27,984 nt of DNA, from positions 1 to 27,984 of the IMG/VR virus record IMGVR_UViG_3300021375_000124; one strand, 5' to 3'. Numbering within the stretch: the stretch's first letter is position 1; every line of letters begins with the position of its first letter. This document shows, one piece after another, positions 7,881 to 22,663 of this stretch. Origin of the DNA: a virus. The position numbers were made by a program, and so were the translations under genes. Below the pieces are notes generated by a model. It did not search any database and was not told the origin of the DNA. It saw only the letters and a list, made by a program, of their open reading frames with translations.

Positions 7881-7895
7881 TTAACTTCCTTGAGT
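7871..7895. terminator. Possible bidirectional stem-loop at the convergent junction
   Basis: ACTTAAG (7871-7877) can pair with CTTGAGT (7889-7895): seven base pairs including one G-U, with an eleven-base loop that contains the stop codons of both converging genes. There is no strong T-run on either side, so it is at best a weak intrinsic terminator. It is the only candidate I see where the two modules meet. Confidence 0.25.
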
Positions 7896-8993
7896 AATCT
7901 TTATAACAGAATCTCCACCACCATTTATCTTAACTGTGTTAGAGATACCATTCTGAATAAAGATAACGGTATAGCCTTGACCGGAGTCTAGATCAACCTT
8001 TACTGATTGTTCTACGCTTCGGGTCAAGCTTATCAATTCACCCTGTACCAACGTAATAATTTGAGTAGTAGTATCTTGACCATAAGCTGTACCTACTACA
8101 CGAGTCACAGTCTTTTGTTGATTCAATTCATCATCATTTAATTTATCTAGCTCATCTACAACCTTGAGCATATCTTCAAAAAAGTTTACATCTAAAAAGT
8201 TTACATCTAACTCGGTAAACTCTAAATCATCTTCAGCTAGATAATCTTTTTCAAGCTCATCAAACTCTAACAAATCTACATCTAAAACATTACTTGCTTG
8301 AGTTGATGTATCGTCAGATAATGCTTGAGTTCTTTCAGGAGGATTGACAATCAACATGTTGTCGATTAAGTCTAGAGTTAAATCAAGTATGACAGGTTTT
8401 GTTGGTGCTTGTTCAAAGACATTAGTCACCGTAGATTCAAATGGTTTATTAAGAACAACCAAACCCATTGCAGTTTCGACTGTTATCTCTCCACTTGAAG
8501 TACCATCAGGATTAGGTAGAAGTATAACCAAAGACCTACCGAGTTCATCCACAGTAATGGTAAAGTCTGTTCCTCTTATACCAACAATTGCACTGTTGGT
8601 TCTAATTTTTATATTCTTTTTTGAAACTTTGTTAAGCTTTCCAGTGACAAACCTAGCTGTACCCTTTGCAAAGTTAAGAGCCATCTTAGATTTCTCTGGG
8701 TCAGGGTCAAATACAAACTCATCTATTAAAACTTGGGAATGTTCTGTGAGCCTTATCAGCGTATCATCTATGAAAGTGATAGCCATACGACCATTAGATG
8801 TTTCTACGTTGTCATACGAGAGTATAGGAGCTTCTAGGGCAGCTTCCTGTGGTGTATCTCTAACTACCCTAGCAGAGCCTTTTAGCTCTGTGATATTTCC
8901 TATGTTATCAGCAGCCCAAAGAGGTGCCACCATCATTTTGAATGACACAAACAGTACCACCGTTGCCTGTCGAATCGATGCGTAACCAATCAT
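7881..8993 (-). CDS. Exported FecR-domain protein with curlin-like C-terminus
   Basis: A 370-residue protein with a probable signal peptide (residues 1-27, ending PLWA-AD) and a FecR domain over about residues 30-150. The domain has alternating beta motifs such as ITFIDDTLIRLTEHSQV, a basic GTARFVTGK stretch, and the hallmark AIVGIRGTDF. A very acidic stretch follows (about 215-295). The end contains FIQNGISNTVKI (Q347-x-G349-x-x-N352), the same Q-x-G-x-x-N pattern as the curlin-like neighbour. FecR domains elsewhere act in the periplasm as sensors or wall-associated scaffolds; no sigma or anti-sigma partner is here. Its start overlaps the curlin-like gene by 86 bases with only a weak ribosome site; the internal ATG at 8936 would leave too short a signal peptide. 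It is the last gene of the late operon. The FecR call is firm; the role is unknown. Confidence 0.82.
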   Translation of the reverse strand: MIGYASIRQATVVLFVSFKMMVAPLWAADNIGNITELKGSARVVRDTPQEAALEAPILSYDNVETSNGRMAITFIDDTLIRLTEHSQVLIDEFVFDPDPEKSKMALNFAKGTARFVTGKLNKVSKKNIKIRTNSAIVGIRGTDFTITVDELGRSLVILLPNPDGTSSGEITVETAMGLVVLNKPFESTVTNVFEQAPTKPVILDLTLDLIDNMLIVNPPERTQALSDDTSTQASNVLDVDLLEFDELEKDYLAEDDLEFTELDVNFLDVNFFEDMLKVVDELDKLNDDELNQQKTVTRVVGTAYGQDTTTQIITLVQGELISLTRSVEQSVKVDLDSGQGYTVIFIQNGISNTVKINGGGDSVIKITQGS

Positions 8994-9612
8994 TTGCTAA
9001 TGTACTCTGTTGTTGAATGTTAAATGTTCTTGAATTTCCTGTTTGGTCTAGATAAAAATAACCACCATCAGCTCCATCAGCATCTAAGGTTAAAGTATTA
9101 CTATCACCATCAACATCAATGTAGTTAGTTGCTAAATCATAATCAATATCAATAGTAAACGTATTACTATCTCCTTGAATAATCCAGTCTAAGTCTAAAG
9201 TACTTGCCAAGTCAGCAGTAGCTTGGTCATAATTAAATGTATTACTACTCCCTGTTACATCAATATTAAGATTACTTCCATCAGCACCATAAGTATTGGT
9301 AGGGTCTACTTGTATGTTAAAAGTATTACTACTACCATCAAACTCAAATAAACCTGTGAAGTTATCGGCTGTGATGTCCCCTAAAAACTTATTACTATCA
9401 CCAATCTGATTGATGTCTAGTGTCATAGTTCCACCATCTAAATCAAGTGGTGTCATTGACCCTGAAGTCGCTGAAGTACCACCTATAATATTACTTGAAC
9501 CTAGTTGTTCTAAATCAAGATTTGCTGTGGCTCCACTCTGATTTATATAAATCTCATTATCAGCTACAGCCACCATAGCCAATAATGCAGTTAAACTAAT
9601 TAATCTTTTCAT
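8908..9612 (-). CDS. Secreted curlin-repeat-like protein, candidate CsgG substrate
   Basis: A 234-residue protein with a clean signal peptide (MKRLISLTALLAMVAVA, cleavage before DNEIY). The mature part is built from about eight imperfect repeats of 20-27 residues around a G-[SD]-S-N-[TK]-F-x-I core, for example INQIGDSNKF, IQGDSNTFTI and LDQTGNSRTF. The alternating hydrophobics and the Q-x-G-x-x-N spacing are those of curlin (CsgA/CsgB) repeats, here richer in aspartate. Two cysteines lie near the end (VCVIQ and the last residue) and could form a disulfide. It follows csgG with a 17-base overlap and has GGAA upstream of its start. I infer an amyloid-like or beta-solenoid extracellular subunit exported through the neighbouring CsgG. 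It is not a close CsgA copy, so fibre formation remains unproven. Confidence 0.7.
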   Translation of the reverse strand: MKRLISLTALLAMVAVADNEIYINQSGATANLDLEQLGSSNIIGGTSATSGSMTPLDLDGGTMTLDINQIGDSNKFLGDITADNFTGLFEFDGSSNTFNIQVDPTNTYGADGSNLNIDVTGSSNTFNYDQATADLASTLDLDWIIQGDSNTFTIDIDYDLATNYIDVDGDSNTLTLDADGADGGYFYLDQTGNSRTFNIQQQSTLANDWLRIDSTGNGGTVCVIQNDGGTSLGC

Positions 9613-10417
9613 ATTTCCAATATCCCCTCTCGATACCTATTTTAATTATATTTAATACCCCCGTCTCTATAGCTCTTTGTAAAGCAATAGATACACTCTC
9701 GTTCTCTGTGAAGCCACCTTCAATCTCTACAAGCTCTGTACCCATTTCAATAAATCTAAATACATCTTGTGAAATACCAGCAGATAAAATATTCTTAGAG
9801 ACTAACACCTCCATTAAAACTTCACCTGTTGATACAGATACCAACCTTAACGATACATTGACTGTATCTTCTCTGTATTGTTTGTTACTACCAATACCCA
9901 AGTATCTAGCTCCAACACCACCACTTGTTATATTAGTATCATAACTAACAACACCACCTTGAATTAATAACCCTGCAAATAGCAGAGGTTTTAGTTTCTG
10001 TTCTTCTTCAAACTCTTGTCTTGTACTACGTATAAGCTGACGTTCTTTTGTTAAATCATCTAAGCCTACACGTTCTACAACTTTAAAAAACTTTCCATTT
10101 GCTGCATGTTTTAAAGCTCTGATAAGATATGCTTCCGGAGCTTGTGTTACTGCTGTACTAAATAAAGCAAACGTACTGTTGCTCTTACGCTGCCCTGTCA
10201 AGTCTTTAAAACTATTAGGATAGACAGCCACTGTCGGCTGTGTCAGAGCTGCCGGTAAGTTTTTAAGTTCTGTTGATTGTAATTGTAAAATTTTAGAATC
10301 TTTAATTACAATGTTAGGTGCACCTCCAGAGGTGAGCAACCCATCGTATTTAAACGTACAACTAGAAAGTAAAAGAACCGATAGGTAAAGTAATTTCTGT
10401 AGTATTCCCATCTGCAT
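9596..10417 (-). CDS. csgG: CsgG-like curli secretion channel, outer-membrane lipoprotein
   Basis: A 273-residue homologue of the curli export pore, which forms a nine-fold outer-membrane channel in enterics. The N-terminus is a lipoprotein signal with lipobox LSSC (C20). Strong family blocks follow: FSTAVTQAPEAYLIRALK, a FxxVERxGLxxLxxERQLIR stretch, SGGVGARYLGIGSNKQY, VSTGEVL, VFRFIE, AIETGV and IERGYW. All align in order with E. coli CsgG. The constriction-loop residues differ from E. coli Y51/N55/F56: only the phenylalanine (F86) appears kept, with S and L in the other places by eye alignment. The start overlaps csgF by about 50 bases without a good ribosome site (ATG 10417 or 10411); the signal peptide fixes it near there. 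csgE is not visible. Identity is very sure; use by the phage is inferred. Confidence 0.93.
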   Translation of the reverse strand: MQMGILQKLLYLSVLLLSSCTFKYDGLLTSGGAPNIVIKDSKILQLQSTELKNLPAALTQPTVAVYPNSFKDLTGQRKSNSTFALFSTAVTQAPEAYLIRALKHAANGKFFKVVERVGLDDLTKERQLIRSTRQEFEEEQKLKPLLFAGLLIQGGVVSYDTNITSGGVGARYLGIGSNKQYREDTVNVSLRLVSVSTGEVLMEVLVSKNILSAGISQDVFRFIEMGTELVEIEGGFTENESVSIALQRAIETGVLNIIKIGIERGYWKYEKIN

Positions 10418-10856
10418 CTGTAATTTTTAAAGTAACAAACTCACCGTCTGTTTCGTATTCAATAGTATTTCCTTCTAATTCTACGACTCCACTTGTGGCT
10501 GGTGTCTCACCGAATAAATTATCTACGAGCTGTCTTGATAGCTGGGCATAGATTCTTGATTCTAAATTTCGTATAAACCGTGCAAGAGTTGTATTGTTTG
10601 CTTCTCTTTCTAACTCTTCTTGATAAGCTTTTACTTCTGCTTTAATAGCTTCTTTTCTACTAGCTTCTTGGTTCTCAATGGTTAAGTAATGACTAGATGT
10701 ATTGATACCGCTAAAGCTAGGACTTTTAAACTTGTGTACCATCTCATCAGAAATGCTTTGTATAGAATAAAATACACATAACAAAGACCAAAAGGTAATA
10801 CAGAAATAACAATTCCTTATAGACCTTTCGCTGCTAAATGTTGGTTTAAGTTTCAT
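10362..10856 (-). CDS. csgF: CsgF-like curli assembly factor
   Basis: A 164-residue protein with an N-terminal export signal (hydrophobic residues about 17-33, ending near SIS-DE). The mature N-terminus reads MVHKFKSPSFSG, matching the CsgF segment that plugs into the CsgG barrel (MTFQFRNPNFGG in E. coli). After a helical linker (about residues 60-110, LARFIRNLESRIYAQLSRQL) comes a beta-rich tail with ITDADGNTTEITLPIGSF, which parallels the end of CsgF. In enterics CsgF sits outside on CsgG and couples secretion to nucleation. The gene directly precedes csgG and overlaps it, and its own start overlaps the previous stop (TAATG). The linker is longer than in E. coli CsgF (138 residues). The CsgF call rests on these motifs plus context. 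Confidence 0.85.
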   Translation of the reverse strand: MKLKPTFSSERSIRNCYFCITFWSLLCVFYSIQSISDEMVHKFKSPSFSGINTSSHYLTIENQEASRKEAIKAEVKAYQEELEREANNTTLARFIRNLESRIYAQLSRQLVDNLFGETPATSGVVELEGNTIEYETDGEFVTLKITDADGNTTEITLPIGSFTF

Positions 10857-11677: not shown

Positions 11678-11914
11678 TTAGTCTCCTAGTGTTATTGTTG
11701 ATTCAAGTAAATCGTTTATAGAATCTAATAGATACTCTGGTACATCTGCACCAAGTATATCATCTTCGTTGTATGCAATCATATAAGACTCTATAAGGTC
11801 TTCATACAGTGGTCTAAAATCTTCTCGTTGTATCCAAGGCTCGTTACAAATTGTACGAGCTTTACAATCTATTCTGTAAGCTTTGTCTAATTGTTTCTCT
11901 GTATAGAGTAGCAT
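11678..11914 (-). CDS. Small acidic protein of unknown function in the lysis cassette
   Basis: A 78-residue protein, not recognised, predicted helical and acidic in its second half (YLLDSINDLLESTITLGD). No signal peptide or membrane helix is visible. Its ATG overlaps the lysozyme stop by one base and its stop lies one base before the holin start, so it belongs to the same message. No ribosome site is evident, suggesting coupled translation. A regulatory role in lysis is possible only by position. Confidence 0.7.
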   Translation of the reverse strand: MLLYTEKQLDKAYRIDCKARTICNEPWIQREDFRPLYEDLIESYMIAYNEDDILGADVPEYLLDSINDLLESTITLGD

Positions 11915-12366
11915 TATATTTGATCGAGAACAATCTGTTGTAGTTCAATACTACGTCTACCCACTTGAGTAAACCAACGACTGTCTTGCATTTGAGCAGA
12001 CATTTCTTTCCAGTTGTGTTCTCTACAAGCTTTCAACATGTTACGAAACTTTGAAAGTCTTGTACCACCTAAGTTAAAACACATATTGACTAACACGTGC
12101 TGTATCTTTTCAGGTAGTTTATAAAAAGCTTCTTTGTCTCCAAACACATGTATGGCTTCTGCATAATGCTTATCAAAGTCTATCGTGTAGTATCTATCTA
12201 CAACTGCTTGTGGTACAGGTGTACCGACTTCCCAATCATATTCAGGGTCATTAGGTTGACATAGATGACCAACTCCTAGAGTCTTATAGCCTAAACTATC
12301 CATATAAATCTCTAGGACTTCGCCTTCGTGTCGTTTAATTTCTGCTTTGCATTGTTCTATATTCAT
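11914..12366 (-). CDS. Endolysin, T4-type lysozyme (GH24)
   Basis: Muramidase that cuts peptidoglycan to release progeny. At 150 residues it matches T4 lysozyme (164), with the catalytic triad E14 (HEGEVL), D23 (YMDSLG) and T29 (YKTLGVGHL). Downstream core blocks also fit (VNMCFNLGG, KFRNML, DSRWFTQVGRRS). There is no signal peptide or signal-anchor, so it should need the downstream holin to reach the wall. It begins one base after the stop of the large virion protein. The upstream sequence is A-rich (AAAGAAAAATAAT) with only a poor ribosome site. Confidence 0.95.
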   Translation of the reverse strand: MNIEQCKAEIKRHEGEVLEIYMDSLGYKTLGVGHLCQPNDPEYDWEVGTPVPQAVVDRYYTIDFDKHYAEAIHVFGDKEAFYKLPEKIQHVLVNMCFNLGGTRLSKFRNMLKACREHNWKEMSAQMQDSRWFTQVGRRSIELQQIVLDQI

Positions 12367-12367
12367 A

Positions 12368-15300
12368 TTATTTTTCTTTATTTTTTAAGTATTGTTCAAA
12401 GTTTTCTTGTAATACTGGTAAACTTTCAAAAATTTCTTTTGCTACTCTGTCTTTATAATCATCTCTTATATTATAATTAGAAACTCTAAATTTAATTTGT
12501 TCTTTTAATTCTTCAGAATCTATTTTTTTATTAGTAAGCGTATGATCATAAGAGTGAGCTAAACCTTCATTAATTATATGTGTTAATTGTTTACCTCTAG
12601 CACCAGTTACTTTAGGAGCTATTTTTTTTAAGTTTTTATCCTTATAAAAATTATCTAACCACCCACTTCTATGAGCTGCTCTATGTACAATTTCATGTAT
12701 CTGTGTTCTTTCAGGAGTGTGTGAAGGAAGTATTCCTGTTATATCTTTGTATTGTATTACATCTGTTTCTGAGTTAAAAGTTCCTTTTTGAGAAGGGTTT
12801 ATTAAAGAATCTTCTCCCCTCATTCCCAGTTCTTTTGTAGATAATATTCTACCACTACCTTCTGCTGGAAAAGGCTGCATCCCATACTTATCAATTAATT
12901 CATTTCCAGTTGTTTTAATAAAACGAGGGTCACTATAACCTTCTCCACTCATAGAACTCATCTGAGCTTCTTTAGAAACTAAACGATTTTGTGAAATATA
13001 ATTTTCTAGTTCATTTAATTTTTTTTTATATTCGTCAGCACGACCACCCTTATCAAAACCTAACCTATCCATTTGTTCTTGGTAAGGTTCACCAGTGAAA
13101 GGGTCAACTCTATCTGCTGGGTCTTCTTTAGTAAAGGGTACGTTGTCTTCTCCTTCGACTATACCACCTTTAGCTTGTTGCTCTCTTTCAATTCTTTTAA
13201 CTTTTTTACCTAATGCTTGATTATAAAGTCTCATATAAGCATTCCATTCAGCAATAATTTGAATACGTTTTAATTCAGCATCTTTAAAAGCTTGTTCTCT
13301 TTGCTTGTAAGATATATCACCCTTTTCAAAATCTTTTCTAGCTTTGTAAACTAAACCTTCAACTTCTTTTAAATCTTTATTAAGTTGTATTTCTTTTATT
13401 TTTTGATTAACTGTTGGGTCTTGTGGTCTAAGTTTAATACCCATAGTATAAGCAAAAGCTTCCCAAGGACTATACTCTGTTGCATATTTTGAACCGGGTA
13501 TTAACTCTCCTTTTTCAAATCCTTTTTGTGTTCTAAAAGAACGTCTCATTTTTTCGTAGGCATATGAGCCGGGTATAATAGCTACATTAGGAGTTAATCG
13601 TTTAACAAGACCTTTTGCAATCGCTTTCATATCTTCCCCCACACCCAATCCTTCAACTTCTTGTCCAGTAAATGGGTCGGTTCTAGCTACTGCAACATTA
13701 TAAATATCACCATACAAACCAAAACTAGGTTGTAGTGGAGCTGGAATACCGGGTACTCCTTTTTCTCTTTCTTCAAAAATATCTCCACCCGGTATCCATC
13801 TACTAATATCTAAATATTGAGAATCGCCATCATTAGAATTAAAAGGCATTCTAATAGTAGTAGGTGGCATATATGGAACACCCCATAAAGTTTTAGAAAG
13901 TTCTTCACGCATGGTAATTCTTTCTAATTCTGGGTCTCCTCCTCCTACTTGTTTACCTAATTCATTTAAACCATATCCAATCATTGCCCACTTTGCAAAC
14001 TTGTGAGGTCTTAATGCTGCTGTTTCAGCTAGTAATGGTACAATCCTATATGTATAAGATAAGAAAGGAGTAGCTGTTCTTCTTAAAAAGTTAATTGCTG
14101 GAGCATTAATATCATAATCAATAAACCATTTTCTTGCATCTAAAGCTGCTTCAGTGACATCCATCTTTTTATTTATTCTATCCATAAACACAGCCATTCT
14201 AAATACTTGATCTTCAAGTTGATAAAGATTTTCAAGATTACCAAGGGTAGCCTGTTTAGCTTTCCTAGCTGAATTAAACATGTCTGTAGAATAACCTAAC
14301 ATTTGAGATGGTCTATCTGCATCAGTAATCTTAGCCAAGGCTTGTTCCATAGCTCCACTTGTATCACGTAATTCTTTTGTTACAATATCAACATCAAATA
14401 CACCTTGCTCTCTGGCAAGTCTAAAGAACTCTGAGTTATTTCCTTTACGTAATTCAGAAACTGCTTTAGGTAAAAATGAATATGATGTATCTGCAAAATC
14501 TAAAAGTACCAAGTTAGACATAACGTTATTAGCATGTACTGCTGGATTCCAAGCTGTTTTAGATTTTTTCCAAATTGATTGCATTTTATCAAATTTTTTT
14601 AAGGCATCTTCCATACCTACATTTTCGTTAGTCATTTTAACCATACGACTAATATCACGCATAACATCTTTATGCACATACATTTCTTTGTTAGCCAATT
14701 CTCCATAAGACTTAACAGTTGTTCCTCTTAGTGTTGTATTTGGAACTTGTATAAAATCTTCAGGTTTTCCTTTAGCTTCCCAAGATTTTTTAGTTATAGC
14801 ATATCTTGAATCATTTGATAAGTCTCTAAAGAATTTTGCAGTAGCTATATCATTAGCCATTAATCTACCTGTTTCTGCAATTGCAAAAGATGCATCTTCA
14901 ATCTCACCCATTTGTTTTCTTTCATCTGGTGTAAAGTCTCTACGTATTTTTACTTTACCTGCAGAAGGTTCTCCAATAACTTCCCAGCCTTGAGTTTTCC
15001 ATTTAGAACCTGCTTTATTAAATGCACTCTCAGATATTTCTTCAACTAATCCTCTAGGTCTTAATTCATTTCCAGCAAGACTTACCTGTCTCATTGAATC
15101 AAAGAGTTTTTTACCTTTAGGACTTTTTAAATGTTTAACATAACTTCGATGTAAATATGTATTAATATTATTATTAAAAGTGGCTTCATCTAACAAACCT
15201 AGATCAACATATTTTTGACCCATTTCTTGAATAAGCTTTCTACCTTTTAAATTAATCTCAATTCCTTCTTCAGCCAAATCATCTATCGAATCTAAATTAC

Positions 15301-16990
15301 CTGTCATTAAATGATATAATAATCTTCTTTGAGGTGCTTCTAGTTTTTCGTTTGCTTCTAATGCAACATCTAAAAATTGTTGACCAATGCTATTTTTATT
15401 TACTTGTAATTGTCTTCTAAGTAATTTATAATCAGAAGATAAACCATAATCATCAATTAAAAATCTTCCCATGTGTTCTGCTAACGCATCATCACCAACT
15501 TTTATTTTGCCTAGTCCTTTTGTAAGACCAGCACCTGCTAATCCAGCTATAAAACCCATACCAAACTTTTCAAGTGCTGTAGCATTTGGGTCATCTACAG
15601 AGTTATATCCAGCAATACCAGATGCAGACCCTGTAAGAGCAGAACCCCAATTATCAAACATTTTATTTTTTAAAGCTATACCAAATTTATCTTGATAGAA
15701 TTTGACAACACTATCTTTCATAGATAAACCTTCATCTGATTGCTCAGAAAAAACCTCTTGAACTTTTTTTTCAACAATCTTTTTCTCAACATCTTCTTGA
15801 ATAGGTCGACCTTCTACAGGTTTTACTTCTTCTGCAATATCTTTTTGTTTTCTAACAGTTGGTGGATTAATTGACTCTCTTACAAATTGAGTAGCTTTTT
15901 CTTTACTACCAAAAATTCTAGTCTGCACAGCTTGTTTTTTTCTTCTATTAAAATCAGCTATACTTTCTCCTCTTTTTCTACCACGTAGTGTAGGTTGTAT
16001 AGTAACTTCCCACTGCTTTTCAATAACTTCACCTTGCTCGTCAATAGCTTTTTGAACTGTGTAAAGTGTTTTAGTTTCTTGATCTTTTGTTTTGTACAAC
16101 CATGTCTTAGAATTTGATTTTCTATCTACCACAAAGACAACTTCTTTTGGTGATTGACTCGGTTCAGCTACAGCCCCTTCAGGACTTTTCTTAGCTTCTC
16201 CAGTTTTTGGAGGTTGTAATTCATCTAGTGGAAATTTTTTAGTAGCAGTTGCACCTTCTTTACTAACAAATTGTAAAGTTGCAAATCCTTCATCATCTAT
16301 TTGTATAATAGTTCCTACGTTTTTACGATCTGGAGCAATAACTCTTCTACCTACCGTTAGTGGTTGGTCATTAATTATTACCTGTTCTAACTCTTCTAAC
16401 TCATCTTCGGCAGTCTTTTTAGGCATTTCAATTTCATCAGCCTTTTTAAAGTATCCCTCTTTACCTCTAATCTTTGCTATACCTTCTAAAGCTGCTCCAC
16501 CAAGTCCACCAAGTGCAGTACCGGCTGTAGCACCAATAGCAATATTTTCTAATCTACTTTGTTTTTCACCAATTAAACCCGGTGATTCTTCACTAACATA
16601 TCCCATCCCTGCATGGAAGCCACCAGCCATACCCCCATACTTTGCAAGTTGCCATACATTCTTAGCTTTTTTATATGCTCCTACAATAGGCAAATAACCT
16701 ACAGGGTCTGCAACAACTGCAGAACCTAAGAAAGCTGTCATAGCTTCAGTACCATATTCAGGATTATCTAAGATGGATTGAAGAGTTCTATCTTTTCTTT
16801 TTAATTCTTCAGTAGCATCTTCCATCCCAAATAGACCTGCCCCAAACTGAGCAATACCACGCAATGAATCACTAGCTCCCATTTTGGCAGCATATTTAAT
16901 TGCATCGGATTTTGAAAGTTGAAAAGTCGGGTCGACTGTTGAACGAATGTATTCGATAAATTCTTTATCGTTATCTTTTTGATAAGCCAT
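12368..16990 (-). CDS. Giant internal virion/ejection protein with C-terminal HExxH domain
   Basis: A 1540-residue protein, the largest in the window, in the position and size class of T7 gp16 (1318), which leaves the capsid and helps DNA cross the envelope. Two Gly/Ala-rich hydrophobic stretches lie near 85-175 and a third near 450-500, possible membrane-interacting parts. No N-terminal transglycosylase motif is seen. Around residues 1270-1310 is the motif KEDPADRVDPFTGEPY flanked by KGG boxes. Near the C-terminus is HEIVHRAAH (H1432, E1433, H1436), a zinc-metalloprotease HExxH, with a possible third ligand in INEGLAH about 38 residues later. Ribosome site AAAGG is close to the start. The virion role is inferred from context; the protease call rests on the motif. 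Confidence 0.8.
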   Translation of the reverse strand: MAYQKDNDKEFIEYIRSTVDPTFQLSKSDAIKYAAKMGASDSLRGIAQFGAGLFGMEDATEELKRKDRTLQSILDNPEYGTEAMTAFLGSAVVADPVGYLPIVGAYKKAKNVWQLAKYGGMAGGFHAGMGYVSEESPGLIGEKQSRLENIAIGATAGTALGGLGGAALEGIAKIRGKEGYFKKADEIEMPKKTAEDELEELEQVIINDQPLTVGRRVIAPDRKNVGTIIQIDDEGFATLQFVSKEGATATKKFPLDELQPPKTGEAKKSPEGAVAEPSQSPKEVVFVVDRKSNSKTWLYKTKDQETKTLYTVQKAIDEQGEVIEKQWEVTIQPTLRGRKRGESIADFNRRKKQAVQTRIFGSKEKATQFVRESINPPTVRKQKDIAEEVKPVEGRPIQEDVEKKIVEKKVQEVFSEQSDEGLSMKDSVVKFYQDKFGIALKNKMFDNWGSALTGSASGIAGYNSVDDPNATALEKFGMGFIAGLAGAGLTKGLGKIKVGDDALAEHMGRFLIDDYGLSSDYKLLRRQLQVNKNSIGQQFLDVALEANEKLEAPQRRLLYHLMTGNLDSIDDLAEEGIEINLKGRKLIQEMGQKYVDLGLLDEATFNNNINTYLHRSYVKHLKSPKGKKLFDSMRQVSLAGNELRPRGLVEEISESAFNKAGSKWKTQGWEVIGEPSAGKVKIRRDFTPDERKQMGEIEDASFAIAETGRLMANDIATAKFFRDLSNDSRYAITKKSWEAKGKPEDFIQVPNTTLRGTTVKSYGELANKEMYVHKDVMRDISRMVKMTNENVGMEDALKKFDKMQSIWKKSKTAWNPAVHANNVMSNLVLLDFADTSYSFLPKAVSELRKGNNSEFFRLAREQGVFDVDIVTKELRDTSGAMEQALAKITDADRPSQMLGYSTDMFNSARKAKQATLGNLENLYQLEDQVFRMAVFMDRINKKMDVTEAALDARKWFIDYDINAPAINFLRRTATPFLSYTYRIVPLLAETAALRPHKFAKWAMIGYGLNELGKQVGGGDPELERITMREELSKTLWGVPYMPPTTIRMPFNSNDGDSQYLDISRWIPGGDIFEEREKGVPGIPAPLQPSFGLYGDIYNVAVARTDPFTGQEVEGLGVGEDMKAIAKGLVKRLTPNVAIIPGSYAYEKMRRSFRTQKGFEKGELIPGSKYATEYSPWEAFAYTMGIKLRPQDPTVNQKIKEIQLNKDLKEVEGLVYKARKDFEKGDISYKQREQAFKDAELKRIQIIAEWNAYMRLYNQALGKKVKRIEREQQAKGGIVEGEDNVPFTKEDPADRVDPFTGEPYQEQMDRLGFDKGGRADEYKKKLNELENYISQNRLVSKEAQMSSMSGEGYSDPRFIKTTGNELIDKYGMQPFPAEGSGRILSTKELGMRGEDSLINPSQKGTFNSETDVIQYKDITGILPSHTPERTQIHEIVHRAAHRSGWLDNFYKDKNLKKIAPKVTGARGKQLTHIINEGLAHSYDHTLTNKKIDSEELKEQIKFRVSNYNIRDDYKDRVAKEIFESLPVLQENFEQYLKNKEK

Positions 16991-16998
16991 AGAACCTT

Positions 16999-18882
16999 TT
17001 AAATGTTTAAGTCTTTATATAAATCTGTTAAAAATTTTCTTCTAAAATATATTTTTTTAAATGGGTCATATTTTTTTTCATCTTCTGTAATATAACCTGC
17101 ATTCACTAACATTTCATCTGTTACCAAATCAATTGGGTCTTCTCTACCCGGAGCTTGTTGAGTAACACCACCTATTTTAGGCTTAACATTTTTAAACTTA
17201 GTTATTGTATCTTCATCTATTTTATACTTTTCAGATATATTTATAGGTTCTCCAGTTTCAGATTTACCACCAGTATCACCACCAGCAATATTTATAACAT
17301 TAAATTTACGACTCAAATCTCCTTCAGAAGCTTCGATAAAATATTCTGATGTATCGGTGTCATATTGTATAATGCCTGTGCCTTCAATAATATTAGGGAA
17401 AAATTTAGAAAGTTCTACCGGTTTTCCATCAGTAATATCTACAATACCTGTTTTATCTTTAGTTTGAGTTAATGTAAATTTAGCTAATAATGTATTAGGA
17501 TTTTCAATTAAATCATTATATTGTTTTAACTTTGTTGGGTCTGTAATTTGAGACTCAATAGTATTTAATTTAGTGGTTTCTGTGTCTCCTGATTGTTTAA
17601 CTTGATTAACTGTATAGTTTATACCAAGCTGATTAAGTTGAGTTTGTCTGAATGTTTCAGCATCCCATCCTTCTTTTTTAGCAATTGAACTATACTCTGG
17701 TGACACTTTAAACATCTTACTTTCTTGATCGTACATAGCCATTGGTATACCATCTTTTGTAAATTTACCCTGTAGTATATCTTGATATAACGAATCAATA
17801 ATTTCGTTAGCTTTTTTAGTATCATCTAAATTTATTTTTAAAGCATTATTTGCTAATGCAAAAGAATAGGCTTTAGAAATATTCGTCTTTAAAGCAACAC
17901 CCTTTCCTCCGTCTTTTAAAATATCTACCACTTGATCTTGAAATTCAGGTTTAATCTTAGCTACAAAAGACAGCTCAGTACTAGAGTCTAACATTAAACT
18001 ATCATTGTAATTTTTAGAAGAATTTATTACATCAGCTTTTGTTGAGCCATCTTCATACGTAATAACTGATAGTATATCGTTTGTGACAACTCCCGGTGAA
18101 GAGTTATAACTTATAGTTTTTGTTTCTTGACTTTTAATTTTTTTACCAATCTCCTTACCATCTTTGTATTGTTCTTTCATTTTAGCAATTAAACCGGGTG
18201 TATCATATCCTAGCTTATCATAAGTTTCAGCAACTTCTTTAAACTCTCTAATCTCTTTAAACATAGGAGCATCAAACACTTTATCTTTAGCTACTTTCTT
18301 TTTATAGTCTAAAGTATCTGGAGTTTCGACTCCTATAATATTTTTAAAACCTTTGACTGCTGCACCAAATAAACTTCTAGGAGCTGCTTGTTTAGAAAAT
18401 TGTTCATAACCTTCTATAAACTCTTCTAAAGTTGGTACGTCTCTAGCTTCTAATGCTTTCTTTTCTAATGAACCATACAGATCGTTGGCTTTAGCTTCAG
18501 CTTGTTCATTTAACCAGCTTTGAATATTTTTTACTTCATCAAAAGGTCTTTCATTTTTTGCAGCTTCTAAATACGTATTAAATATTTGTTTTTGTAAATA
18601 ACTTTTACCACCATTTTTTGTAACTGTATCCCAATATGTTAAAGTATCATTAGCATCTTTTATATAACTTTGATACTTAGCTTTCGCAGGTGCATTTGCT
18701 GCATCTAATTGATCTGCTCTATTATTTAAAAAAGAAGTAGCTCCTTTAACTACAGTATCAGCAAGTAATAATTTCTTAGAAAATTTTTCTTGCTCTTTAG
18801 CTGTTTGCTCTCTTCTTTCTCTAGCTGTATCTAGTTGTCCTTGAACAAATTGTAGTTGTTCATCTACATCATATCTTGCCAT
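16999..18882 (-). CDS. Virion-associated protein, gp15-like in position
   Basis: A 627-residue soluble-looking protein starting with a charged coiled coil (DEQLQFVQGQLDTARERREQ) and continuing as a long mixed alpha/beta chain without membrane segments or catalytic motifs that I recognise. It lies immediately upstream of the giant gp16-like gene, the place of T7 gp15 (747 residues), so an internal core or ejection role is a fair inference. The final third is richer in beta strands (TDTSEYFIEASEGDLSRKF). AAAGG precedes its ATG by about ten bases. Homology to gp15 cannot be shown by eye. Confidence 0.7.
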   Translation of the reverse strand: MARYDVDEQLQFVQGQLDTARERREQTAKEQEKFSKKLLLADTVVKGATSFLNNRADQLDAANAPAKAKYQSYIKDANDTLTYWDTVTKNGGKSYLQKQIFNTYLEAAKNERPFDEVKNIQSWLNEQAEAKANDLYGSLEKKALEARDVPTLEEFIEGYEQFSKQAAPRSLFGAAVKGFKNIIGVETPDTLDYKKKVAKDKVFDAPMFKEIREFKEVAETYDKLGYDTPGLIAKMKEQYKDGKEIGKKIKSQETKTISYNSSPGVVTNDILSVITYEDGSTKADVINSSKNYNDSLMLDSSTELSFVAKIKPEFQDQVVDILKDGGKGVALKTNISKAYSFALANNALKINLDDTKKANEIIDSLYQDILQGKFTKDGIPMAMYDQESKMFKVSPEYSSIAKKEGWDAETFRQTQLNQLGINYTVNQVKQSGDTETTKLNTIESQITDPTKLKQYNDLIENPNTLLAKFTLTQTKDKTGIVDITDGKPVELSKFFPNIIEGTGIIQYDTDTSEYFIEASEGDLSRKFNVINIAGGDTGGKSETGEPINISEKYKIDEDTITKFKNVKPKIGGVTQQAPGREDPIDLVTDEMLVNAGYITEDEKKYDPFKKIYFRRKFLTDLYKDLNI

Positions 18883-18883
18883 T

Positions 18884-19486
18884 TTATTGTACCTTTTCTA
18901 ATAAACTATTATTTGTTGGTGGATTTTGTTTTTCTAACAATCCCGGACCTATATCTAAACTTTGTATCTGTTGTGCAATGTCAGTAGGTAATGCTCCTTG
19001 TGGCACCTCAGACATATTACCAAGTTTTGCTCTTGCAACCTCTTGAATATTTTTAGCTTTTTTACTTTCTAAATCTGTCTCTGGTTCTTCTTCCTCTTCT
19101 TCATCCCCATATAAAACATATTGTATATCAGCTTTTTCAGCAAGTGCCATTAACACATACATAACTGGTTCAACTAATAACAATAATAAATCAGGATTCC
19201 ATTTACCTTCTCTAAAACCAACATATAATAACTGTGTAGTTATATCTGATAAAGGAACTCCATCACTGACAGACTGCATCATCGGCATATAATTTTCTTC
19301 TACCAATAACTTATCTGTAATATATTCTAAAGCATCTTTAAAGTTTGTAAATTCTGGAGGACTCTCCCAAGGATAAGATTCATCAGGACTATTTGTTAAA
19401 CTTTGCCCCGGTATAGGTCTGCCGGTATTTTCTGCTAATGCATCAATTCCTACTGCATCGTGTTGTTCAAAAGGTAATCTTTCCAT
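18884..19486 (-). CDS. Acidic structural-module protein of unknown function
   Basis: A 200-residue protein, not recognised. It has a proline-rich start, a very hydrophobic helix (about 98-116, PDLLLLLVEPVMYVLM), then an acidic run of aspartate and glutamates (about 128-137) and a polar tail. The hydrophobic helix next to an acidic run could be a membrane or protein interface. AGGAT lies eight bases before its ATG, and its stop is one base before the next gene's ATG. Its place among the ejection proteins suggests a virion or assembly role. Confidence 0.7.
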   Translation of the reverse strand: MERLPFEQHDAVGIDALAENTGRPIPGQSLTNSPDESYPWESPPEFTNFKDALEYITDKLLVEENYMPMMQSVSDGVPLSDITTQLLYVGFREGKWNPDLLLLLVEPVMYVLMALAEKADIQYVLYGDEEEEEEPETDLESKKAKNIQEVARAKLGNMSEVPQGALPTDIAQQIQSLDIGPGLLEKQNPPTNNSLLEKVQ

Positions 19487-19490
19487 AATA

Positions 19491-20480
19491 TTATCCTGCT
19501 AGTCCAATAGGTTTAAAGACTTGACGTTGAAAATTTTTCATATAAGATTCATACGCAGATGTTCCATCAGATAATAAATCATTAACATATGATTGATTGG
19601 CTAAAGCCCCTCCCATGAAACTATTACCACCTTGAGAAAGTGTTAAATCAACTGTATCAAAAACAGATGGATTTTGAGAACTCATTGCCATTAAAGATGG
19701 TATATTTATAGAAACATAATCAGCAGCATCAGGTTGTTTATAACCAAGAGCTTCTGCTACTTTTTGAGTACCGGCTGCTTTTAATCCACCAATAGCTGCA
19801 TCTGTAACTGAAGATTGAACCGCCTTCTTACCATAATCATAGGCATCAAAACTTGCAATATCTTTTCTAATTGCAGAATCTTTGTCAAATATATTTATGT
19901 TATCAAAGAATCCCGGCTCTTTAGATTTACCAGCTAATAATGAATCTTCTAAACTAAAATTAGTTCCTTTAAAACCAGATACATCTGTTAATCCTGTAAC
20001 ATCAGCCAGTGCATCTGTTTTCTTTCCTAATCCTTTATCAATAATTTTTTGAGCATCTATACCTTTAGTAACTTCACTATCTACTTTTGTTAATACATCA
20101 GCATCATTAGTAATTCCAAAAAATTCTTTAGTAGACTCAAATGCATTACCAATAGTTTCAGTTACTCCTTTATAAATATTACCAACACCAGTACCAGCTT
20201 TATGAATAATATCCATTGTTCTTCCTAAAGCTTTTGAAGCTACATTATTACTTGATAATAGTTTGTTAGCCCACGTACCTGATTGAGAACCTGCAAAGTT
20301 TCCAAAAATACCCTGAAGACCTTTAAAAGCATAAGGCATTAAAAACATCATACCTAGTTGACCAACTATTCCAAGTTTACCAAAAGCTTTACCAACTTTT
20401 TTTACTACCTTTTTAATTCCACGTGCTATTTTTTTAACACCTTTTTTCAAGCCTTTCCAAGCTTTAGATAATATTCCCAT
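19491..20480 (-). CDS. Ejection/virion protein with cationic amphipathic N-terminus
   Basis: A 329-residue protein whose first 36 residues carry 13 Lys/Arg and no acidic residue, arranged so that I3, L4, W8, L11, V15, I18, I22, V25, V29, F33 and L36 fall on one helical face. This looks like a membrane-active antimicrobial peptide. A hydrophobic stretch follows (about 38-60, IVGQLGMMFLMPYAFKGL). The remainder is polar and Gly/Ser-rich with no known motif. It sits between two other presumed internal virion proteins and has a good AGGAGAT ribosome site. I infer a T7 gp14-like part in building the trans-envelope channel; homology is not demonstrated. Confidence 0.7.
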   Translation of the reverse strand: MGILSKAWKGLKKGVKKIARGIKKVVKKVGKAFGKLGIVGQLGMMFLMPYAFKGLQGIFGNFAGSQSGTWANKLLSSNNVASKALGRTMDIIHKAGTGVGNIYKGVTETIGNAFESTKEFFGITNDADVLTKVDSEVTKGIDAQKIIDKGLGKKTDALADVTGLTDVSGFKGTNFSLEDSLLAGKSKEPGFFDNINIFDKDSAIRKDIASFDAYDYGKKAVQSSVTDAAIGGLKAAGTQKVAEALGYKQPDAADYVSINIPSLMAMSSQNPSVFDTVDLTLSQGGNSFMGGALANQSYVNDLLSDGTSAYESYMKNFQRQVFKPIGLAG

Positions 20481-20482
20481 TC

Positions 20483-22663
20483 TTAATCTCCTGTACCAAA
20501 TATTCGATCAACGGTAGCTGATGCGTTGTTAAAATTACTAGACCAGTTTTTAGCTGCATCGCCTTCTGAACTAGCAGCAGCAATCATAGCTTGAGTTTTT
20601 CTATTTGCTGTATCTGTTGCCCATCTAAAATCATAATCTGCTTGATCTCTAAGCTCTTGCCATAAAAATGCTTGTGCTTGTGATGATAGATTAAATGCAT
20701 TCTGAGCATTTTGTTGATTCACTGCATTTTTTGCAGCAGTATCTGCTAGATTGGCTTTACGTCTCCACTCAACATTTGATTGTTGAATTGCCTGTGCATT
20801 TTGAACATTAAATTGTTCTCGTTGAAAATCAATTGTTTCATTAAATTGTTTAGCTTGATTTATTATTGCAGCGTTTGTTTTGTTAATTTCTAACTCATTA
20901 GCAATACGTCTAGCTTCTGCAGCATTTTGTTGTTGTACGTTAAACTGTTTAGCTGCATTCATTTGAGATGCATTAAATTGATTAACCTGTGTATTCAAAC
21001 TTGCCATAAACTGCTGTGTTTGATTTTCACTAGCAGCATTAAACTGTCTCGCAGCATTTGTTGCAGCTTGATTACTTAACAATCTTTGCTGTTCTTGTTG
21101 ACCCTTTAATACGTTTGCTTGTTGTTGATTGCTCAAGTTTTGCATATCCATTGTTAAGAATGCTTGAGCATTTTGTATTTGAGATTTCTGATAAAAGTCT
21201 GCTTCAGCTAAATTAGCTTGAGACATTAGTACAGCATTTTGAATGGTAGCTTGTTGATCTAAATTAGCTTCGGTAATTCCTACAGTTTGTAAGAACTTAC
21301 TATTTGAAAGTGCTATCTGTTGGTCAGAACTAAACTGAGCCATATCCATTTGAAAAACTTGCGAAGCATTTGTTAATGCTGTTTGCTGTTGTCTTGCAGC
21401 ATTAGCTTCTGCTTCTTGAGCTTCTATAGTTTTTTGCTGACTTACACTTGCTTGTATAGCTTGAGCATTTGATTGTGCTAAAGGCATTGCAGCTTGTATA
21501 ATAGTATTGAGCAAGGCATCTCTACCTACAGTGGATGCTGACATACCACGTTGGGCTAACATTTGTTCAACACTAGCTACAGCAGGTGCTGCCCATGTAG
21601 GAACTTCACCCTCTTCAATACCTTTTAATAAACTATCTAACTGATTAGATACTAAGGCTTCTTCTGGTAATCCTTCAATGATACCTCTTTCAGCTTCACT
21701 AAAATCAGCTAGTCTAGCTTCTAAAGTTTCTGGGTCGTTACCCAATTCTGTAATATCTGCATCACTTAGTCCAGCATTCTTTAATTGCTTTTTAGCTCTT
21801 GTAATACGTGATAAAGAACTTCCAGCATTTATAGCTGCTTGAGATTTAGCTTCAGGACTAATCGTCCCTATAACTCTTTCAGTTAATGCTCCGGGTATAA
21901 TTTCTACCTGTGCACCTTCTATGGGAGCTACTCTTTCTACACCTGCAGCTTTTGCAAGAGCATCTTCTGTAATCTCACCTTCAGCTACAGCAATTTCTGG
22001 AGCTTCAGTAACTTGAAAAGCTTCCATTCTTGCAGCTTGTAATTCTTCTGGAGTTGCAGCTCTAGAAATGTCTTTCATTGTTTGAACATTTTCTAAGCCT
22101 ATTTCTTTTACAAACTCTGGTGTAACTCCTTTACGTTGTGCAAGTTGTAAAGCTTCTGCTTCATATTCTGGTCCTGTTGGAACTGCTTCTATTTTAGCTG
22201 TTGGTATAGCACCTTCAGGTATTTCACCTCTAGCAATTGCTTGAGCTTGTTTTCCTGTTTCAATTATTCTAGCTCCCCGTTCCTGACTAAACTCTTCTTG
22301 TTGTTTAGCTTCATCTAACCCTCTAATACGTTCAGCTTCTGCTGCTGCTAATTCTTCATCAGTAGCAGGAGAAGGTGCTGGAGTAGGTTCTGTAGCAGGT
22401 TTAGTTTCTAATGAAGGACTACCTCCACCACCGGGAATATTAGGCATTGTCGGTGCTTGTATGTTTGAAGGCATACCACCACCAATGTTTATATCAGGTT
22501 GATTCTCAAGTTCTCTTTGAGTTCTTTGTCTATCTATTTCTTCACGATCTAGGTCTGTTCGCATATTACGAACAATATCACCCTCTTGATAACCAACTCT
22601 ACCACCTTTACGATAGTCTTGTCTTTCTGATGAACTTCTTTTTCTATTTCTTCTTTTTGACAT
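20483..22663 (-). CDS. Gln/Asn/Ala-rich internal virion protein
   Basis: A 726-residue protein in three parts: a basic head (MSKRRNRKRSSSERQDYRKGG, residues 1-21) with the box KGGRVGYQEG; an acidic, Pro/Glu/Ala-rich stretch (about 30-370); and a long Gln/Asn/Ala-rich helical part (about 380-690) with recurring QFN and QQNAA units such as AARQFNAAS, AAKQFNVQQQNAA and NQAKQFNET. The last part should form long helices or coiled coils. The place ahead of the other ejection proteins suggests an internal core protein, perhaps of the T7 gp14 class, but sequence similarity is not evident. AGGAAAT precedes the start by eight bases. Confidence 0.72.
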   Translation of the reverse strand: MSKRRNRKRSSSERQDYRKGGRVGYQEGDIVRNMRTDLDREEIDRQRTQRELENQPDINIGGGMPSNIQAPTMPNIPGGGGSPSLETKPATEPTPAPSPATDEELAAAEAERIRGLDEAKQQEEFSQERGARIIETGKQAQAIARGEIPEGAIPTAKIEAVPTGPEYEAEALQLAQRKGVTPEFVKEIGLENVQTMKDISRAATPEELQAARMEAFQVTEAPEIAVAEGEITEDALAKAAGVERVAPIEGAQVEIIPGALTERVIGTISPEAKSQAAINAGSSLSRITRAKKQLKNAGLSDADITELGNDPETLEARLADFSEAERGIIEGLPEEALVSNQLDSLLKGIEEGEVPTWAAPAVASVEQMLAQRGMSASTVGRDALLNTIIQAAMPLAQSNAQAIQASVSQQKTIEAQEAEANAARQQQTALTNASQVFQMDMAQFSSDQQIALSNSKFLQTVGITEANLDQQATIQNAVLMSQANLAEADFYQKSQIQNAQAFLTMDMQNLSNQQQANVLKGQQEQQRLLSNQAATNAARQFNAASENQTQQFMASLNTQVNQFNASQMNAAKQFNVQQQNAAEARRIANELEINKTNAAIINQAKQFNETIDFQREQFNVQNAQAIQQSNVEWRRKANLADTAAKNAVNQQNAQNAFNLSSQAQAFLWQELRDQADYDFRWATDTANRKTQAMIAAASSEGDAAKNWSSNFNNASATVDRIFGTGD

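Follow-up and report, generated by a model that had tools for sequence, protein, structure and literature searches.

How short-tailed phages pass their DNA across host membranes has been worked out in only a few model phages, and scarcely at all in those that infect the most abundant bacteria of the sea. The question is raised by an open reading frame (ORF) in the IMG/VR virus record IMGVR_UViG_3300021375_000124, of which positions 1 to 27,984 were analyzed as one stretch of 27,984 nucleotides (hereafter the window). A preliminary description had likened the N-terminus of its 329-residue product to an antimicrobial peptide, assigned the product to the virion and suggested that the N-terminal helix could insert into the host inner membrane during DNA ejection. 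Is this N-terminal arm more than an accident of composition, is it kept by relatives, and what might it do?

Table 1. Positions of the 329-residue ORF, its parts and its module neighbours in the window
Feature	Position	Strand	Basis or remark
Proposed ejection protein, ORF of 329 aa	19491..20480	-	Relatives encoded at 55 IMG/VR loci
Cationic amphipathic arm, residues 1-36, about three 11-residue repeats	20373..20480	-	Composition, moment, AlphaFold2 helix
Hydrophobic stretch, residues 37-51, near-invariant GxxGxxGMMFLMPYA	20328..20372	-	42 aligned homologues; pN/pS
Second predicted helix, residues 80-116, weaker, nearly neutral amphipathic pattern	20133..20243	-	AlphaFold2, low confidence
Ribosome-binding site AGGAG	20488..20492	-	Within the 3' end of the 726-aa gene; 7 nt ahead of the ATG
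726-aa Gln/Asn-rich protein, upstream neighbour	20483..22663	-	27 phage records match
200-aa acidic protein (37 D/E, 14 K/R), downstream neighbour	18884..19486	-	Conserved
627-aa module protein	16999..18882	-	No PHROG match in 11 members
1540-aa protein	12368..16990	-	Virion structural / endolysin families matched in 4 of 10 aligned members, by the syntenic counterparts and not by the window's copy
Separate lysozyme	11914-12366	-	Last in the gene order

The N-terminal arm and its homologues

Read on the minus strand, positions 20,355-20,480 encode residues 1-42 of the ORF, and two bases separate its ATG from the stop codon of the gene upstream (Table 1). The preliminary description had counted 13 lysines and arginines, no aspartate or glutamate, and tryptophan within residues 1-36, and these counts are correct; the single tryptophan is W8, and the combination of 13 basic with no acidic residues is unique to the arm among 8,159 36-mers from 26 window ORFs. 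Hydrophobic residues occupy positions 3, 4, 8, 11, 15, 18, 22, 25/26, 29, 33 and 36. The helical moment of residues 1-36, a calculation proposed earlier as a check, is 0.706 on the Eisenberg scale, a value that none of 20,000 shuffles reached (mean 0.18, maximum 0.63), and the best-scoring 18-residue segment of the arm has a moment of 0.74 (Fauchere-Pliska scale) with a charge of +9.

The N-terminus is present at 54 of the 55 IMG/VR loci, which together with four annotated homologues (HTVC103P gp58, HTVC104P gp60, HTVC115P gp45 and WGH49920 of Pseudoalteromonas phage Slicky01) gave 58 proteins with 48 distinct arms. The DNA polymerase and neighbouring genes led to the annotated relatives, HTVC103P first, which was recognised by its gene order; tblastn of the window protein and one homologue against annotated phages gave no match, probably because this search masks low-complexity sequence. 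All 48 distinct arms, which are related by descent and so are not independent events, carry 10-15 lysines and arginines and lie above at least 499 of 500 shuffles, and 45 of them lack acidic residues altogether. A moment of 0.5 is reached by none of the 263 other ORF N-termini that served as controls. The arm was absent from all patterns of the first homologue search, whereas one pattern of the further-homologue search, KAWKGIKK, does lie within it; the ten more divergent homologues found with the annotated proteins retain the arm, with 10-18 basic and 0-1 acidic residues and moment peaks at 98.75-101 degrees. The proposed antimicrobial-peptide-like character is thus real, far beyond chance and conserved in every detectable homologue that has an N-terminus: the charge pattern, whose conservation had been left to be checked, is shared by 48 of 48 distinct arms, and homologues without the cationic helix were not found.

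A second sample was anchored on the upstream 726-residue family by taking 80 IMG/VR loci, the best 80 of 555 relatives, and reading the next gene (the slot); because these are the best-scoring loci, the sample leans towards the branch of the window, and ten of the 80 are contigs that also occur in the first homologue set. Among the 76 readable slots from these best 80 of 555, 60 pass a strict arm test, set at a moment of 0.45 or more together with a net charge of +8 or more, and 73 have a net charge of at least +7 followed by an uncharged hydrophobic stretch, the arm being measured to the first uncharged hydrophobic window. The 70 distinct slot arms include 60 without acidic residues, 57 that exceed at least 297 of 300 shuffles and 56 that peak at 96-101.5 degrees; those that miss these values are mostly short (22-28 residues). 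The three loci without an arm had either no suitable nearby ORF (L131, L135) or an unrelated ORF (L158). Only two of 369 control ORFs pass the strict test, and since both are slot-type genes of dropped loci (L116 and L124, where blastp had missed the neighbour), the true control count is 0 of 367. At one locus (L164, 5854-6930) the slot protein has an extra hydrophobic stretch ahead of the basic arm and another behind it.

Synonymous sites of the homologues differ at 0.51, and pN/pS is 0.38 over codons 1-34 and 0.12 over codons 35-52 (1,032 pairs); the arm and the stretch that follows are under purifying selection. These values bear on the reading of the arm as a low-complexity accident of an AT-rich genome with many AAA codons, in favor of which one can cite the G+C content of the window (36%) and the use of AAA for 427 of 499 arm lysines. 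Such an accident does not account for protein change being so limited at this synonymous divergence, for the strict positional alternation, or for the absence of arms from all 367 true control ORFs; the counts refute it, and we give it a vanishingly small chance.

An eleven-residue periodicity

The moment peaks at a median of 98.5 degrees over the 48 distinct arms (interquartile range 98.25-98.75), equivalent to 3.655 residues per turn. Eleven residues in three turns correspond to 98.2 degrees and a heptad to 102.9 degrees; the peak lies close to the former angle and away from the latter, so that a heptad coiled coil does not hold as the main description. Lag 11 gives the top self-similarity in seven of the eight arms listed, the window's among them; for charge the autocorrelation is strongest at lag 11 (0.64), and for hydrophobic residues lags 7, 11 and 18 give similar values. 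Split into elevens, the window arm reads MGIL SKAWKGLKKGV KKIARGIKKVV KKVGKAFGKLG. The 3-4 spacing that had been described for the hydrophobic face is present, and an 11-residue (4-3-4) repeat describes it better. Arm length varies by repeats, from about three elevens in the window to four in HTVC103P and five in HTVC115P; over 20 arm clusters, arm length showed no significant whole-turn quantisation at 3.6 (R 0.36, p ~0.08).

Gene neighbourhood

On the minus strand the genes run in the order fibre genes, 80 residues, 726, 329, 200 (acidic), 627, 1540 and lysozyme. Where the contigs leave room to see the neighbours, a homologue of the 726-residue protein lies upstream at 46 of 47 loci and one of the 200-residue protein downstream at 52 of 52. 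HTVC103P has the same gene order, and blastp pairs the window's 726-, 329- and 200-residue proteins with its gp59, gp58 and gp54; the 627- and 1540-residue proteins gave no blastp match in HTVC103P or HTVC115P. Virion structural or endolysin families were matched by counterparts of the 1540-residue protein in four of ten aligned members, one of them an internal virion protein with an endolysin domain, although sequence identity between these four and the window's copy is only 18-19%. Neither the 627- nor the 1540-residue protein of the window matched a PHROG; PHROG scans of the 726-, 627- and 200-residue families found nothing either, and profiles of the 200-, 627- and 1540-residue families gave nothing useful against the PDB. 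The 329-residue gene sits in an HMO-2011-type morphogenesis module, and this context supports a role in the virion and in ejection. The imaged phages that carry the module, CRP-9 and CRP-13, are described as having short tails (PMC8528129).

The homologues of the 726-residue protein themselves start with very basic, non-amphipathic stretches. Together with the 13 positive and no negative charges of the arm, this would suit a basic internal protein that binds the packaged genome, neutralising DNA in the head and being carried in alongside it. For that task charge alone would suffice, however, and both the apolar face, which none of 20,000 shuffles matched, and the hydrophobic segment behind it would go unexplained; we regard a genome-binding arm as improbable.

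Several further observations concern the window and its module as a whole. The DNA polymerase is nearest to that of HTVC103P (53%). A curli-type (type VIII secretion) cluster lies at 7881-10856 on the minus strand, with CsgG (PF03783, 2.4e-51) and FecR (6.2e-12) and, by eye, a curlin-repeat-like protein and a CsgF-like position; such a cluster is known from other pelagiphages (PMC9599517). The window combines this cluster with an HTVC103P-like polymerase and an HMO-2011-type module, and a SAR11 host is likely, to judge from the affinity of the polymerase and from a curli cluster like those of pelagiphages. The 726-residue protein (from residue 19) and the 1540-residue protein (from residues 1274 and 1314) have in common a KGGR(V)/KGGI-type motif, which is confined to these two among the 19 window ORFs scanned. 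Similar GGRVGF/Y stretches are found in relatives, and the motif might act in both proteins as a signal for packaging or docking.

The hydrophobic stretch and the predicted structure

The hydrophobic segment that had been described behind the cationic helix is present and uncharged, at about residues 36-51. In 42 aligned homologues K35, G37, G40 and G43-A51 are invariant, an invariance that is partly selected since GMMFLMPY was one of the search patterns used to collect the homologues. The Kyte-Doolittle maximum over 19 residues is 1.17 in the window protein and 1.12-1.72 over the 48 distinct arms, the usual cut-off for a transmembrane helix being 1.6; the window's stretch is thus of moderate hydrophobicity and weak for such a helix, which counts against a membrane role. 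Other slot proteins of the neighbour-anchored sample have segments that, judged by eye, are plainly transmembrane-like. The stretch comes in unrelated forms, such as LGIVGQIGMMFLMPYA, LGPLGSIALSFILPG and the strongly hydrophobic ALAIAAAVVVTGGAA, and of the 435 pairs formed by 30 diverse slot proteins only 33 still show detectable similarity beyond residue 65. The conserved element is therefore an architecture, a cationic amphipathic arm followed by an uncharged hydrophobic helix.

AlphaFold2, run with 42 homologues, predicts one helix over residues 3-46, with a pLDDT of 83-89 at residues 1-30 and a break at P49-Y50; the pLDDT falls below 50 over most of the protein beyond this N-terminal helix. 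Residues 81-116, in the region of the second predicted helix, have a moment of 0.49, the highest in the window outside the arm. A second model, of an HTVC115P-like protein, was discarded at a pLDDT of 35. Sequence profiles against the PDB found no solved relative, and Foldseek against the PDB, a weak test for a model that is mostly of low confidence, returned one meaningless match; no relation to a characterised ejection protein emerged from PHROGs, Pfam, PDB sequences or Foldseek with this low-confidence model.

Among PDB sequences the arm comes closest to designed coiled coils, at a weak E of 0.18. These matches agree with the main rival to a membrane role, in which the arm is an assembly anchor: its apolar stripe would pack on the portal, a chaperone or some other protein of the virion, and its charge would serve solubility or DNA contact within the head. 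The 11- and 18-residue repeats of tape measure proteins are reported to use tryptophan and phenylalanine as anchors (PMC3271669, PMC5099701). The acidic 200-residue neighbour, found at all 52 loci, could be the partner, but it also occurs in phages without the arm. A periodicity of 98.5 degrees rather than the 102.9 of a heptad also tells against packing of this kind, and a single partner leaves unexplained why the next segment is constantly uncharged and hydrophobic, yet variable. Since this stretch is swapped for unrelated hydrophobic ones while the architecture stays constant, lipid is indicated over a single protein partner, and we consider an assembly anchor unlikely.

Relatives without the arm

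Of the 27 annotated records with the 726-residue family, 20 were inspected, and the arm protein is present in four and absent from 16. The module can therefore work without the arm, and whatever step the arm serves is not universal. As judged from these genomes, the arm marks a large uncultured branch together with a few isolates and does not typify the module as a whole. Slots without it hold a protein of 62-76 residues, a hydrolase-like protein or unrelated ORFs, with a holin-like protein next in two cases; pelagiphage HTVC033P has a 114-residue Gly/Ala-rich protein in the slot and no arm protein, and Sinorhizobium phage phiM6 lacks the arm gene as well.

The hydrolase-like and holin-like proteins mean that the slot is not exclusively one for ejection proteins, and they would be in keeping with a late lysis or membrane-disrupting factor that is not part of the virion. 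We think this very unlikely for the arm protein: the window has a separate lysozyme, the gene is syntenic with those of a structural module, and full-length armed slot proteins are mostly of 200-465 residues with long, variable C-termini, unlike small lysis proteins.

The slots with hydrolase-like proteins include those of several roseophages (L063, 5199-6583; L064, 5266-6195; L070, 4654-6020; L076, 4717-5595), and CRP-2 and CRP-603 have a nearly identical 147-residue membrane protein in the slot after the 726-residue gene; the occurrence of both kinds in roseophages suggests a hot spot for envelope-related genes. A Gly-rich hydrophobic tail on the 726-residue homologue was seen in nine of 16 tails from phages without the arm protein, among them HMO-2011 (L068, 3787-5907), phiM6 (L069, 3529-5265) and MQM1 (L067, 3210-4742), and in 13 of 110 distinct tails from phages with it. 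This trend is too weak to claim that such a tail on the neighbour replaces the arm.

Proposed function

The stripe of isoleucine, leucine, valine, phenylalanine and tryptophan opposite the lysines, the lack of acidic residues, the glycines and the adjoining hydrophobic helix are, as far as composition can tell, the make-up of a membrane-binding helix, and the location of the gene within a module of ejection type suggests an action of the arm during DNA entry. On these two grounds we judge docking on, or insertion into, a membrane by an ejected virion protein to be the most likely role. That the arm is conserved likewise points to a bacterial membrane on which it would dock or which it would enter. 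It is, in our assessment, rather likely that the 329-residue product serves a short-tailed marine phage as an ejection protein, with the arm and the hydrophobic helix acting at a host membrane. A literature search found no virion proteomics of the carrier phages.

In the mechanism that we propose, the 329-residue protein would be an internal protein ejected through the tail, and the lysines of its arm would attach to the negatively charged face of a host membrane, offered either by phospholipid of the inner membrane or by lipid A of the outer membrane. The apolar stripe would then sink into the bilayer and the hydrophobic helix would follow, opening or anchoring the end of a DNA conduit. The inner membrane had been named as the target in the preliminary description; by analogy the outer membrane appears as likely, because DEV gp73, an outer-membrane pore, has hydrophobic helices and many basic residues that are thought to touch and bind lipid A (PMC10925440).

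Conserved amid drifting surroundings, the arm offers a small, defined and testable part for the membrane step, as a 36-residue peptide or as a deletable segment, and as a signature it could reveal ejection proteins that escape searches by sequence. In the titles and abstracts of open-licence papers, we found nothing on such an arm, on antimicrobial-peptide-like parts of internal virion proteins or on hendecads in phages.

Comparison with known systems

Cationic amphipathic alpha-helical antimicrobial peptides of the magainin type are lysine-rich, contain glycine, have a tryptophan near the N-terminus and lack acidic residues. The window arm resembles them as an amphipathic helix of net positive charge; unlike them, it is longer, lies within a larger phage protein and is not known as a released or lytic peptide.

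Siphophage tape measure proteins, described as having 11- and 18-residue repeats, adjacent hydrophobic regions and a role in DNA transit (PMC3271669, PMC5099701), share the lag-11 periodicity and are weakly matched by the profiles of some relatives. The PHROG families of stated function that relatives of the window protein matched are tape measure or tail proteins (best 4.9e-7, also 1.3e-6) and a membrane protein, and the window protein's own tape measure match reaches only an E of 0.022. Unlike tape measure proteins, the window protein has only 329 residues and belongs to a module of short-tailed phages.

The podophage ejection proteins T7 gp14 / DEV gp73, of the outer-membrane pore kind, and T7 gp16, which crosses the inner membrane (PMC8954989), are similar in lying beside large module proteins, in being predicted to be helical and in having a hydrophobic element. 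The 329-residue protein differs from them in having no detectable sequence or fold relation to them, and also in its arm, as no cationic arm of 11-residue repeats appears in the descriptions of the T7, P22 and DEV proteins in the portions of the literature cited here.

The DNA pilot protein H of phiX174 forms a DNA-translocating tube whose coiled coil is reported to start with three 11-residue repeats (PMC7354561, Table 1). The window arm also has about three, and the resemblance is one of repeats only: as described there, the repeats of H are Gln-rich, of mixed charge and internal, whereas those of the window are lysine-rich and N-terminal with a hydrophobic stretch next to them. A bolder idea, which we hold to be quite doubtful, is that several arms might form a short lysine-lined helical pore, with the stripes facing lipid and the lysines inward, that would carry double-stranded DNA across a host membrane. 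If so, this pore would be the counterpart of the phiX174 H tube in a double-stranded DNA phage, built from an antimicrobial-peptide-like 11-residue repeat and set in length by the addition of repeats.
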